Part shown: positions 29,224 through 33,296 of the stretch, one piece after another
How the letters are laid out: every line of letters begins with the position of its first letter
Numbering within the stretch: the first letter of the stretch is position 1
From: Chthoniobacteraceae bacterium
Lineage (GTDB): Bacteria > Verrucomicrobiota > Verrucomicrobiia > Chthoniobacterales > Chthoniobacteraceae
Direction: 5' to 3'
Assembly (NCBI GenBank): GCA_947476045.1
Contig: CANJNZ010000035.1
Location: 1 to 43,572, forward strand
Length of the DNA: 43,572 nucleotides
Notes under the pieces: generated by a model
Database searches by the model: none
Told to the model about the DNA's origin: nothing
What the model saw: the letters and a program-made list of their open reading frames with translations, nothing else
Made by a program: the position numbers and the translations under genes

Positions 29224-30354
29224 CTATTCGCCCTCTAGCTTGAAAATGATGCCGTCGAGGGCGGCGTCGGTTTTTAGTTTTATTTTGCGTCCTTCGGTCA
29301 TGGGGTCGTCGGGGGTGAGGCGGGCATGGAGGGTGGCGATGGCTTGGGCGGAGCGCACGCTGGCGGCTTCGAGGAGTTTTTGCAGGGCTTCTTCCACCGA
29401 TGCCGAGGGTGTGGATTTTTCGCCGATGGCGTTAGTTTGCAGGAAGTGCTTTGCCGAGTCGTCGCCGATGCGGATTTGCCACTTGTCCTCGCTGGCGAAG
29501 TAGAGGGCGAGGGCACCGCGTTTGAGCACACCAAGGCGCTTGGCTTCTTTTTGCACGTAGGCTTCGAGCTTGTCTCCCTGTGCGGCGGGTGGGGCTTTTG
29601 CAAAGACCCGTGCGCTGAGTTTGATTCCTGTGAAGCGCTCGAAGTTCACCAGCTTGTAGTTGAAGTGTTTTGCACGATCCCACTCGGTCGGGAGGATTTT
29701 GTCGGGGTCATCGAAAGGGGAGTCCGGGCCGGGTTCTTTGGGGCCGCTGTAGTGCGACGAGCGGGCGACGAGTTTATTGAAAGTCTCCTCGTCCGCGCGG
29801 AAGGCCTTCGCTTCCTCGCCGAGGCGCAGAATTTTCACCCGCATGGTGTCGCCCTGTTTGATCTTTGGCAGGAGGTCGAGGCCACGGATGACGCGGCCAA
29901 AGACGTTGTGCTGGTAGTTCAGGCGGTGTTGGGCGCTGAGCATCAGGCAAAATTGAGAGCCATTCGTGTCGGGGCCGTCATTGCCCATTTGCAAAGTCCC
30001 CATGCCGTCGTGGCGGAGGCCGGGGACGATTTCATCGGGGAAAAGATAGCCTGCATCGCCATTGCCCGTGCCCGTGGGGTCGCCGCCCTGCACGACGAGG
30101 CCGGGGACGACGCGGCACCAAGTCAGCCCGTCATAGAAAGGTTTGCGCGGCTCCGGGCCGAGTCTGCCCTCGGCAAGTGCGATGTGGTTCACCACGGTCA
30201 TGGGCACCTTTTTGTAAAAAAGCTCGCAAACCACCACGCCGGCCTCGGTCGTGATTTGGGTGTAGAGCCCGTCAGGCAGGCCGTGCGGGTTTTCTGCCGG
30301 TGCGGTAAAGGTGAGTAAAACCCACGTGGACAGAGAGGCGATGATGCGGTTCAT
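29224..30354 (-). CDS. Secreted cyclophilin-type peptidyl-prolyl isomerase with C-terminal extension
   Basis: 376 residues with an N-terminal signal (MNRIIASLSTWVLLTFTAPA). Residues 30-180 are a cyclophilin domain: FYDGLTWCRVVPGLVVQGGD, then PTGTGNGDAGYLFPDE, GMGTLQMGNDGPDTNGSQF and HNVFGRVIRGLDLLPKI. The catalytic Arg of RVVPG and the Gln of VQGGD are in place. It would assist folding of exported proteins by Pro cis-trans isomerisation. The C-terminal half (about 190-376) has no recognised domain and looks mixed alpha/beta. Bacterial stand-alone cyclophilins are usually 160-200 residues, so the extension is a notable addition. Monocistronic on the minus strand; the stop lies 21 bp beyond the tRNA-Arg 3' end. 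Confidence 0.92.
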   Translation of the reverse strand: MNRIIASLSTWVLLTFTAPAENPHGLPDGLYTQITTEAGVVVCELFYKKVPMTVVNHIALAEGRLGPEPRKPFYDGLTWCRVVPGLVVQGGDPTGTGNGDAGYLFPDEIVPGLRHDGMGTLQMGNDGPDTNGSQFCLMLSAQHRLNYQHNVFGRVIRGLDLLPKIKQGDTMRVKILRLGEEAKAFRADEETFNKLVARSSHYSGPKEPGPDSPFDDPDKILPTEWDRAKHFNYKLVNFERFTGIKLSARVFAKAPPAAQGDKLEAYVQKEAKRLGVLKRGALALYFASEDKWQIRIGDDSAKHFLQTNAIGEKSTPSASVEEALQKLLEAASVRSAQAIATLHARLTPDDPMTEGRKIKLKTDAALDGIIFKLEGE

Positions 30355-30565
30355 AAAACTCGCACGTATCGGGCTGGGAGGAGGCAGGATTGTCGAGCGG
30401 AATCCATGGTTTTACCAAGCCACGGTGGCAATATCTCGCAGGATAGAGGGGGTGAGGCAGGATATCTTTGAACAGAAAATACTGGTATGAACTCTAAGAT
30501 AAAAATCAAAGCAAACGTCTCCATGATAGAACTCGAAATCTCGAAACAACCCTTTTCCTAACCTT

Positions 30566-30703
30566 ATGAACACTTTAAAAGCCAGCCAATCAGCAGAAAG
30601 AAAAATAATTTATCTTTCGCATTGTGTTCCGGCAGAAAACGACTACATTCGGAGCATGAAAGAAAAAGCAAACTCAGAAGTTGGCACGTCCACTGCTAAG
30701 TAA
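30566..30703 (+). CDS. Possible 45-residue small protein upstream of the paralogous pair
   Basis: An ATG at 30566 opens a 45-codon frame (MNTLKASQSAERKIIYLSH ...) ending TAA at 30701-30703. It shares no clear motif with the two following small genes and no recognised family. The region is AT-rich and the frame could be chance. The rest of 30355-30565 holds no feature I can support. Confidence 0.25.
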   Translation: MNTLKASQSAERKIIYLSHCVPAENDYIRSMKEKANSEVGTSTAK

Positions 30704-30738
30704 GTCTTTATCAGCCAAACAACCAAACCACTAAGAAC

Positions 30739-30918
30739 ATGAAAAAATCCCTGAAATCCACGAACCGCTCAGCAATGACCTTCGGAGACCTGATTCTCGC
30801 CGTAAGCAGCTGCAGCAAGAATCTGAACGAAACCGCCGCAGCTGTGGCCGACCTCATTGAAAGCGGTCGCGTTCGCCTGACCAACAACGGTCGCGCCCTC
30901 CGCGCACGCGTTGCCTAA
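30739..30918 (+). CDS. Small conserved protein, copy 1 of a tandem pair (59 residues)
   Basis: 59-residue basic protein starting MKKSLKSTNRSAMTFGDLI. It is about 60% identical by eye to the next small gene, sharing GDLI, AVSS, AAVADL and SGRVRL, while many codons differ at silent third positions. That pattern of protein conservation with synonymous change is strong evidence that both frames are real. No signal peptide or membrane segment. The central part would form helices, with a basic end (RALRARVA). No family with a known role is recognised; a small nucleic-acid-binding or regulatory role is only a guess. The 25-nt leader is almost pure A and C with no Shine-Dalgarno sequence. Confidence 0.75.
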   Translation: MKKSLKSTNRSAMTFGDLILAVSSCSKNLNETAAAVADLIESGRVRLTNNGRALRARVA

Positions 30919-30960
30919 TTTCCTCAGTAAACAAACCCAACCCAACAACACTACCCAGCC

Positions 30961-31137
30961 ATGAAAAAGTCACTCAAAACAGCACATCGGAACCTCACAC
31001 TCGGCGATTTGATCGTCGCAGTCAGCTCCAACAGCCGTAACAACCGCGAAACCCTCGCCGCAGTTGCCGACTTGCTCGACAGCGGAAGAGTCCGCCTGCA
31101 ATCCGGTCGCACTACCGTGCGCGCCCGCGTTTGCTAA
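30961..31137 (+). CDS. Small conserved protein, copy 2 of a tandem pair (58 residues)
   Basis: 58 residues starting MKKSLKTAHRNLTLGDLIV, paralogous to the preceding gene with the same MKKSLK start and the same GDLI, AVSS, AAVADL and SGRVRL blocks. It ends in Cys instead of Ala. It starts 42 bp after the copy 1 stop; the intervening leader (from about 30926) is again made nearly entirely of A and C. A strong hairpin terminator follows 33 bp after the stop, so the pair probably forms one short transcript. Function unknown. Confidence 0.75.
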   Translation: MKKSLKTAHRNLTLGDLIVAVSSNSRNNRETLAAVADLLDSGRVRLQSGRTTVRARVC

Positions 31138-31170
31138 AATACCCGCGCAAACTAGTTAGGATTTTCAAAG

Positions 31171-31200
31171 CCCCGCCGGCAGCCAAAAGCTCCGGCGGGG
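31171..31200 (+). terminator. Strong hairpin terminator of the small paralogous pair
   Basis: A perfect 9-bp stem CCCCGCCGG / CCGGCGGGG (31171-31179 with 31192-31200) has an inner AGC/GCT extension. It is followed by TAAGTTTT. The T run is short but the stem is very stable. It separates the small genes from the CAP-domain gene. Confidence 0.8.
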
Positions 31201-31289
31201 TAAGTTTTCAGGGGTAGTGGCGGAGGAAGTAGCGCGTATTTCAGATGGCGCGCGTTGTGGCACGAATCATGTTTATCATAATAGCTAGA

Positions 31290-33296
31290 ATGACACCCAG
31301 CCTTCGCTACTTTTGGTTCATATTTACATTGTTAGTCTCGTTGACTGCGGGGCGGGCGGTCACTTTGACGCCTGAGGAGCAGCAGCTTGCGAATTTACTG
31401 ACGACTGCGAGCGGGCAGCAGCGGGATAAAGGGGCGATGCACCTTGATGAACGTCTGGTGATGGTGGCTCGCGCAAGGGCGATGGACATGGCAAGGCGCG
31501 ATTATTTTGGCCACGTTAACCCGGACGGGAATGGGCCGAATTTTCTCGTCCGTGCGACGGGCTATACACTGCCCGGCACATGGTCGACCGACCGCAGAGC
31601 CAACAACATCGAATCCATTGGCGGCGGCTACATGAGCGCGCAGGAGTGTTGGTCTGAGCTTATGAAGTCCACACCGCATCGGACGCACTTGCTGGCGCAG
31701 GAGTCTTTCTTCCGCAACCAGACGAGCTACGGAATCGGGCACTACTACGACCCGAATAGCACCTACTGGCACTACTGGGTCATCATCACAGCGCCGCCTG
31801 CGCCGGTTTCCGCGTTGAGCATCGCTTCGCCAGTGGCAGGAGCGAAAGTAACCTCGGATACGCTTTCGGTGCGTGGGAGTGTGAGCGGTGGTGCGATGTT
31901 TTCCGCTTTGCAACTGCGCCTCGATACGCCGGCGGGCGCGGGGACTTGGATGGATTTGACGCTTCCGACCGCGGCCGGGGTCGGGCAGTGGACGGCGACA
32001 GTTTCGGGGCTGTTGCCGGGCGTGAATACGATTCGCATGCGGACGCTGAACGCCGCAGGTGCTGTTGCGCGAGAGGCTGTCTGCGCGGTGCGGCTGGTTG
32101 TTTTGAAACCACTCACCGTGAGCGTAGATGGCGCAGGCGTAGTGACTGCGGGATTTGTCGGCACTACGAATCGCGAGATCGGCGCGAGCTACAAGATTTC
32201 TGCGACACCGAATGCAGGTTTCATTTTTGATCGCTGGGATGGAATACCCGCGACGCCGGGGCGTGATGTTTATCGCGCGGCGCAATCGTTCGTGATGTCC
32301 GAGGGGCTCGCGCTCACGGCGCATTTCATCGCCAATCCTTTCCCTGCTCTCGCCGCGAATTACGGCGGGCTGGTCGGCGCTGACGGAGCTGCGCCGGGCG
32401 AAAGTGGCGGTATATTTATGAATGTAACCGCTGGCGGTGTTTTCAGTGGGCGGCTTGTTTTCGCGGGGCGGAATTATCCCGTGCTGGGTCGATTCAATAG
32501 CATCGGCGAAGCTTTGGTGATTATCCCGCGTTCCGGCCTGCCGGCGCTGAGTCTCGCTGTGCACCTCGATGTGAGCGGCGTAGAGCGGGCGATTACCGGC
32601 AGCTTGAGCGACGGCACGGCGACTTTCGATTTTCGGGCAGATCGCAGTGTGCCCACCGAAGCCGTTCAATTTACAGCGAGCTTCGCACCCGATGTCGTGA
32701 GCCCGGTCGCGCCGCACGGTTATGGTTACGCGATGGTCACGGTGAGGAAAGATGGCATCGCGCGCGTCTCCGGCGTGCTGGCGGACGGGCAGGCGTTTGT
32801 TGTCGGCACTTATTTGACAGGGGAAGGGCGCATCCCGTTGCACATTCCGCTCGGCGGTGGAACGAGTGCGCTGCGTGGTAATCTCCAAATCACCGGTGAA
32901 AATATGGACGGCACCGTGAACTATAACACACCGATGAGTGCCACAGTTCATGTAGCTGCGGGCGGTCGCTATGTCCCGCCGCTTGCGGGTGTCCCATGTG
33001 TGCAGTTTGGCGGAGTGAACAGTGGTGAAGTGACGCTATCCCAAGGCGACCTCGGCGGAGATGTGAGCCATGATTTTTCTATTGGCACCAATAGCCGCAT
33101 TACGTTCGCAGTGCCTGTTCCTGCGGGGTGGAGCCTGAGCGTCAATCCGCGCAACGGGCGCTTCGTTGGGAGATTCATCCACCCGCTTGGCGGCGTGCGT
33201 GGCTTCAGCGGTGTTGTGAGTCAGAGAGATGGAACCGGGCAGGGCTTTTTCCTCGGGGCTGCAGAAGGCGGCTCCGCCGTGCTCGGCGCGCAATAA
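31290..33296 (+). CDS. Secreted CAP-domain protein with Ig-like and InlB-type repeat region
   Basis: 668 residues from the ATG at 31290 (MTPSLRYFWFIFTLLVSLTAG, signal peptide). In-frame ATGs upstream at 31245 and 31269 add residues with no clear role. Residues 31-168 form a CAP/SCP (PR-1) domain: NLLTTASGQQRDKG, LVMVARARAMDMARRDYFGH (H75), AQECWSELMKSTPHRTHLL (E119, H130/H133), and STYWHYWVI. An Ig-like domain follows (SIASPVAGAKVTSDTL), then an InlB B-repeat-like unit (SYKISATPNAGFIFDRWDG). The 300-residue beta-rich C-terminus has repeated GxxSGxL patterns, seen in secreted verrucomicrobial proteins. The CAP cavity may bind lipid or metal. Extracellular role unknown. The stop lies 1 bp from the convergent peptidase stop. 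Confidence 0.88.
   Translation: MTPSLRYFWFIFTLLVSLTAGRAVTLTPEEQQLANLLTTASGQQRDKGAMHLDERLVMVARARAMDMARRDYFGHVNPDGNGPNFLVRATGYTLPGTWSTDRRANNIESIGGGYMSAQECWSELMKSTPHRTHLLAQESFFRNQTSYGIGHYYDPNSTYWHYWVIITAPPAPVSALSIASPVAGAKVTSDTLSVRGSVSGGAMFSALQLRLDTPAGAGTWMDLTLPTAAGVGQWTATVSGLLPGVNTIRMRTLNAAGAVAREAVCAVRLVVLKPLTVSVDGAGVVTAGFVGTTNREIGASYKISATPNAGFIFDRWDGIPATPGRDVYRAAQSFVMSEGLALTAHFIANPFPALAANYGGLVGADGAAPGESGGIFMNVTAGGVFSGRLVFAGRNYPVLGRFNSIGEALVIIPRSGLPALSLAVHLDVSGVERAITGSLSDGTATFDFRADRSVPTEAVQFTASFAPDVVSPVAPHGYGYAMVTVRKDGIARVSGVLADGQAFVVGTYLTGEGRIPLHIPLGGGTSALRGNLQITGENMDGTVNYNTPMSATVHVAAGGRYVPPLAGVPCVQFGGVNSGEVTLSQGDLGGDVSHDFSIGTNSRITFAVPVPAGWSLSVNPRNGRFVGRFIHPLGGVRGFSGVVSQRDGTGQGFFLGAAEGGSAVLGAQ

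Follow-up and report, generated by a model that had tools for sequence, protein, structure and literature searches.

A tandem pair of small basic proteins downstream of a predicted sigma-54 promoter in the Chthoniobacterales

Within the window (the whole 43,572-nucleotide stretch of Chthoniobacteraceae DNA analysed here), two tandem genes for small basic proteins lie downstream of a predicted sigma-54 promoter. We read the pair as a sigma-54 transcription unit for a stress-induced small basic protein, with a nucleic-acid-binding regulator as the first guess at its function, and regard the case for this reading as evenly balanced. In the proposed mechanism, RNA polymerase carrying RpoN and opened by an enhancer-binding ATPase would start about 31 nt before gene A, and the transcript would cover genes A and B and end near a hairpin. 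The products would be tandem paralogues of a basic helix-helix-beta-hairpin protein, encoded by one gene in most of the order. Most relatives would use an additional RpoE/AlgU-like ECF promoter, nested in some lineages within the same ~27 bp. The least certain step is the action of the protein, possibly as a small regulator binding DNA or RNA. Sequence statistics support protein-level selection, the distribution of the family, the sigma-54 and ECF elements and the operon structure. The features are as follows.

29224-30354, minus strand: upstream neighbour, cyclophilin gene
30681-30697, plus strand: predicted sigma-54 (-24/-12) promoter TTGGCACGTCCACTGCT, matching 12 of 13 informative positions, upstream of gene A
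30708-30738, plus strand: predicted 31-nt 5'UTR from an inferred start site, A/C-rich, unstructured, without a Shine-Dalgarno sequence
30739-30918, plus strand: gene A, 59-aa small protein (open reading frame list, copy comparison, family profile)
30919-30960, plus strand: A/C-rich intergenic leader of gene B, in which no promoter of its own was seen
30961-31137, plus strand: gene B, 58-aa small protein, paralogue of A (open reading frame list, copy comparison, family profile)
31170-31201, plus strand: GC-rich hairpin 3' of the pair, a probable terminator with a poor T-tail (folding, relatives)
31245-33296, plus strand: downstream neighbour, CAP-domain gene

Alignment of A with B revealed 36 identical residues out of 58, of which 21 are encoded by different codons. 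By the Nei-Gojobori method, dN is 0.39 and dS 1.86 between the copies (dN/dS about 0.21), and for orthologues from the same genus dN/dS is about 0.07-0.22 (pairs of equal length, 10 of 14). Given the low ratios and the silent codon differences, A and B are thus, judging by their codons, tandem paralogues under purifying selection at the protein level. An earlier note, made from the letters alone, had proposed just such a pair with shared motifs, many silent differences and protein-level selection, and the proposal stands: both reading frames are present, the ratio between the copies is about 0.21 rather than near 1, and the homologues found in other species keep the frame, the two points on which the note had let its claim depend. 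At E ≤10, A and B are the only copies of the family in their own genome.

The family comprises basic proteins of 54-64 residues. A profile (A2) matched 117 of 147 Chthoniobacterales genomes, including 83 of the 102 more complete ones, and 34 of 39 genera; a single-sequence search matched 41 of 57 relatives. Across 387 Verrucomicrobiota genomes, profile A1 matched 11, of which 8 are Chthoniobacterales and the remaining 3 have E of about 0.007 within longer frames. A degenerate peptide pattern run against one genome per species (84,980 species) returned 83 relatives, and the best 80 of these 83 are recorded as Spartobacteria, Chthoniobacter/Chthoniobacterales or Verrucomicrobia/Verrucomicrobiota, with a few metagenome-assembled genomes as Prosthecobacter or Verrucomicrobiaceae; Chthoniobacter flavus is a member of the order Chthoniobacterales. 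The earlier note knew no family for the proteins, and indeed Pfam, NCBIfam, PHROGs, PADLOC and PDB sequences gave no convincing match and none past the cut-off, the best Pfam E over 93 members being 0.0012 for the DapD N-terminal model. In titles and abstracts of mostly non-subscription literature, nothing was recognised on the family, on sigma-54 or ECF regulons of Chthoniobacterales, or on their stress regulation. By these searches the family appears uncatalogued and essentially confined to one order, whose members turn up commonly in metagenomes of soil and fresh water and are almost uncultured. At least two copies occur in 10 of 10 genomes of the window's genus, and G031 has two. A second copy is present in 11 of 81 surveyed loci, and other genera are usually single-copy. 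Gene neighbours vary between lineages; beyond the window's genus, its frequent flanks are an ABC transporter gene (minus strand) and purB (plus strand), the latter with or without a DedA/VTT-domain gene. Diverged extra copies with a weak or no sigma-54 element were also observed in a few genomes (L109 6001-6177, L180 3104-3274, L181 2315-2479 and L183 4091-4267).

The promoter was scored against the sigma-54 consensus TTGGCACGN4TTGCT, which has 13 informative positions, and a whole-genome pattern search also picks the window element (30682-30697). The earlier note saw the A/C leaders but overlooked this promoter, whose predicted 5'UTR is the leader of gene A. With a threshold of at least 9 of 13 within 120 nt, an element precedes 70 of 81 first copies and none of the 11 second copies. 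It is also found before 23 of the 463 other genes at these loci, and in 81 of 4050 shuffles and 1 of 78 shifted windows; the loci share descent, and the counts are therefore not independent. At a score of at least 10, the respective numbers are 59, 0, 9, 16 and 0. First copies below the threshold are those of L063, L100, L101 and L106-L108, seemingly one clade, and of L065, L078, L086, L092 and L109. Because the 81 loci over-represent some families, 60 further members were sampled across ten families (60 of the 117 genomes positive with profile A2). Among these 60, chosen for family coverage, 18 score at least 9 (f8 6/6, f4 4/6, f3 1/1, f2 1/1, f6 5/15, f13 1/9), and none do in f5 (0/10), f12 (0/6), f9 (0/4) and f7 (0/2). 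A standard sigma-70 scan of 30355-31300 found nothing. On the plus strand, a 45-aa reading frame at 30566-30703 overlaps the sigma-54 element and ends just past it; the DNA of this region is similar in L032 and different in L033, and the frame is probably no gene.

The own genome has one RpoN gene and four strong PF00158 activators, by eye receiver-AAA+-HTH proteins, and 55 of the 57 relatives encode RpoN, among them the f5, f9 and f12 genomes of that set. TGGCAY-N5-YTGCTAA was counted 53 times in 12 relatives and its reversed control 16 times; a looser pattern was not enriched in the own genome (12 versus 15 in the control). Such sites lie before amtB (own genome, L125; L146, L156, L158, L161), glnA (L143, L147), the PII gene (L166), a nitrite/sulfite reductase gene (L154), rpoN (L131, own genome) and type IV pilin genes (L132, own genome; L160). 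Since the -24/-12 motif precedes nitrogen, rpoN and pilin genes, it behaves as a sigma-54 promoter in the order.

Most relatives carry a second putative promoter. Of 127 distinct members, 93 have TGAAC-N17/18-GTC in the upstream region. The controls show it in 13 of 457 genes and 26 of 3810 shuffles, and none of the 11 second copies has it. A spacing of 16-17 had first given 36 of 127, and 17-18 was chosen from those spacing counts; the 93 of 127 is therefore partly fitted, with the control rates using the identical pattern. The longer TGAAC-N17/18-GTCT precedes 54 members, 3 control genes, 2 shuffles and no second copy. Both promoters are present in 60 of the 127 members, the ECF box only in 33, the sigma-54 element only in 20 and neither in 14; several f5 members counted as lacking the ECF box read TTTAAAC-N-GTCTA by eye. 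In 24 of the 127, plus the variant L280, the two are nested in one element of ~27 bp, in f8 and f6 where the family is known, and in f2 for L280. In this form GTCT ends 5 nt past the C of the -12 GC, and a start 7 nt further coincides with the sigma-54 start, spacings being assumed in both cases. Transcripts from either promoter should thus begin at nearly the same base.

The window copy has no ECF box upstream, and neither have its nearest relatives L002, L032-L034, L036 and L039; other members of the genus do (L035, L037, L038, L041, and L040 from G031). As the window copy lacks both this box and the dyad described below, only the sigma-54 part applies to this genome. Exact TTTGAAC-N17/18-GTCTMA occurs 10 times in 12 genomes versus 2 for the reversed control; four of the sites precede this gene, two skp/ompH (PF03938), two moxR and one a redoxin gene, and one is apparently intragenic. 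The skp/ompH boxes, TTTGAAC-N17-GTCTCA, lie between the end of an outer-membrane-protein-like gene (by eye) and skp/ompH (L295 835-1464, minus strand; L300 874-1476, minus strand). In E. coli, skp is a classic envelope-stress target. By their position, these boxes, seen with the exact pattern in 2 of 12 genomes, likely mark an envelope-stress regulon of the order. The spacing of the order's box is that of the AlgU consensus given in PMC4074388, GAACTT-N16/17-TCTG. With sigma-54 and ECF promoters on one gene, envelope or nutrient stress is the most likely condition for synthesis of the protein.

Inverted repeats recur upstream of the sigma-54 element: TGACA-N4-TGTCA in 9 loci, GACA-N4-TGTC in 15 and ACAC-N2-GTGT in 16, with a shuffle maximum of 3-4 for 4-mer dyads. 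The 14-mer TGACAC-N2-GTGTCA, allowing up to 2 mismatches, is present in 34 of 75 loci, and in 31 of these its start, relative to the sigma-54 element, falls at -88 to -92; the pattern was derived from the same sequences in which it was counted, and about 10% of shuffles contain one at any position. At this fixed distance, the dyad looks like an activator site. It also precedes an ECF sigma factor gene (L194; PF04542, PF08281) and, at -67/-68, the gene of a 158-164-aa protein (L152, L163, L164). The latter is a stand-alone gene with both sigma-54 promoter and dyad (L163 1003-1476, minus strand; L152 1549-2022, plus strand; L164 1550-2041, plus strand), without a Pfam match in the two tested and near bioD/purQ-like genes by eye. 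A combined dyad and promoter pattern gave 19 matches in 12 of 147 genomes versus 1 for the control, 11 at this family, 7 at the 158-164-aa protein and 1 at the ECF gene; none lies in the window's genus, and the window's own upstream region has no TGACAC-N2-GTGTCA dyad. Nor is the dyad found at the examined amtB, glnA, PII and rpoN sites, and a different activator is therefore likely. Membership in an NtrC or nitrogen regulon, attractive given the sigma-54 sites of amtB, glnA and PII, is weakened by this absence.

Placing +1 12 nt past the C of the -12 GC yields the predicted 5'UTR of gene A. The fraction of A+C in the last 25 nt is 0.88 before A and 0.92 before B; for 20 other reading frames of the window, picked by hand, the range over the preceding 30 nt is 0.30-0.83. 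Both leaders have a minimum free energy of 0 and no Shine-Dalgarno sequence. Thus the A/C leaders without Shine-Dalgarno sequences that the earlier note described are present at both genes, but an A/C-only composition is not kept across the family: the 25 loci whose predicted leaders reach at least 15 nt average 0.75 A+C, the f5 leaders are purine-rich, and 17 of 92 members have Shine-Dalgarno-like strings in the last 20 nt. Predicted 5'UTRs are just 5-12 nt long in many relatives, and such a near-leaderless mRNA would explain the absent Shine-Dalgarno sequence there. The 3' stem reaches -27.1 kcal/mol (z -3.8; 0 of 200 shuffles equally stable). Stems of at least 8 bp within 120 nt past the last stop occur in 44 of 81 loci versus 2 of 81 shuffled, in some relatives followed by long T runs, as in L057, and this frequency supports the reading as a terminator. 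The shared terminator announced earlier is therefore real as a stable stem and weaker than claimed as a terminator, given its poor T-tail and a terminator scan of 30355-31300 that found none.

An AlphaFold model with 93 sequences (mean pLDDT 81.6, pTM 0.61) predicts helices at residues 14-22 and 28-41 and strands at 43-48 and 51-56, with a less certain N-terminal tail. The net charge (K+R-D-E) ranges from +4 to +11 with a mean of +6.8, and M1, G15, V21, E30, D37 and L38 are invariant. None of the matches in the fold searches was significant, every E being above 1 and every Z below 3. Among the insignificant Foldseek matches (E above 1), winged-helix proteins are frequent, and the best Z, 2.7, is to FOXP2. 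The charge and these insignificant matches hint faintly at nucleic-acid binding. As in HU/IHF (PF00216), two helices would precede a beta hairpin, and there is a weak structural match to the HU structure 5eka (Z 2.1); the family is, however, shorter (54-64 aa versus about 90 residues), and its own genome has two ordinary PF00216 proteins. A mini-HU was dropped as a candidate, the profile-profile comparison with 7 HU-like sequences (hhalign) giving 0.65% probability, and PF00216 is not among the 25 Pfam families listed for the 93 members.

Would the protein act on a protein partner rather than on nucleic acid, for example as a small inhibitor or adaptor for an enzyme of nitrogen metabolism or of the envelope within the sigma-54 regulon? 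We consider this rather unlikely. The order's sigma-54 sites before amtB, glnA, PII and nitrite/sulfite reductase genes would suit such a role, the invariant residues are not basic, and the small nitrogen-stress proteins NblD, PirA and sP26 offer a comparison; against it stand the neighbours that differ among lineages and a probably different activator, as the dyad is not found at the amtB, glnA, PII or rpoN sites examined. It is improbable, too, that TGAAC...GTC is the housekeeping promoter of the phylum and the gene constitutive, with a sigma-54 site added. The -35-like TTGAAC does resemble TTGACA and some -10 regions read TCTAAT, yet what stays constant is TGAAC and GTC, the would-be -10 has C rather than A as its second base, the box is rare both before other genes (13/457) and genome-wide (10 exact in 12 genomes), and two exact copies stand at skp.

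Since sigma-E-dependent small RNAs are known from enterobacteria, the unit might instead be mainly a regulatory RNA gene with the reading frame secondary. It is short and mostly of a single gene, with its own promoters and in many relatives a 3' hairpin, and its ECF box resembles that of skp; still, the dN/dS of about 0.07-0.22 with a frame conserved across families, the unfolded leaders and the absence of Rfam matches with E up to 1 across 30300-31300 make this quite improbable. Least credible, and given hardly any weight, is a toxin-antitoxin, defence or phage-derived pair. Two adjacent small genes whose Pfam and PHROGs matches stay at noise level might suggest one, but A and B are paralogues of each other and usually single-copy in other genera, the gene is order-wide and often syntenic with purB, PADLOC gave 0 matches and PHROGs a best E of 0.09, and 72,556 plasmid and 50,697 phage records held none.

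We return to the preferred reading, a sigma-54 unit for a stress-induced basic protein, in which sigma dependence, start sites, stress induction and nucleic-acid binding are what we infer. A more specific version is possible, though we hold it tentatively. The protein would be an order-specific nucleic-acid-binding stress regulator whose promoter is read by an RpoE-like ECF factor and by sigma-54, the two elements being fused in some lineages (TGAAC-[TTGGCAC-N5-TTGCT]-GTCT) with a common start, so that either holoenzyme would give the same almost leaderless mRNA; the window would be derived, with the ECF box lost, the gene duplicated and sigma-54 only. The nested promoter would then be a clean case of two unrelated holoenzymes sharing one start site, and a small protein of 117 of 147 genomes whose promoter is repeatedly rebuilt from two sigma-factor elements could serve as a marker for both regulons. 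A comparison is offered by rhlG, an enzyme gene. In P. aeruginosa it has sigma-54, sigma-70 and AlgU (ECF) promoters, as described in PMC4074388; sigma-54 and an ECF factor likewise meet on one gene there, but from separate start sites, whereas the nested elements of some lineages of the family fit into ~27 bp and have nearly the same predicted +1. With NtrC-type sigma-54 regulons the window shares a canonical -24/-12 element and a genome with RpoN and PF00158 activators, and differs in that the target is an uncharacterised 58-aa protein and the relatives' dyad is not at nitrogen genes. The main text of a sigma-54 survey names Opitutia within Verrucomicrobiota and does not contain 'chthonio' (PMC12316311). 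Another tiny protein of the PVC lineage with unassigned function is the PVC signature protein (CT421.2), which, by the distribution reported in PMC3444138, is found in all sequenced Chlamydiae, Verrucomicrobia, Lentisphaerae and Planctomycetes, whereas the present family is essentially that of one order; PMC6426960 describes other DNA-associated proteins of PVC bacteria.

Two further groups of sigma-54 elements were observed in the order. Three ECF sigma factor genes have one upstream (L194 1312-1944, minus strand; L142 1595-2251, plus strand; L206 1325-1984, minus strand), an arrangement that suggests a cascade from sigma-54 to ECF factors. In the own genome and in G001, a strong element lies 27-28 nt before the start of a protein beginning MFKFLKQ or MFTFLKQ (L126 3-1472, minus strand, without a Pfam match; L197 142-357, minus strand).
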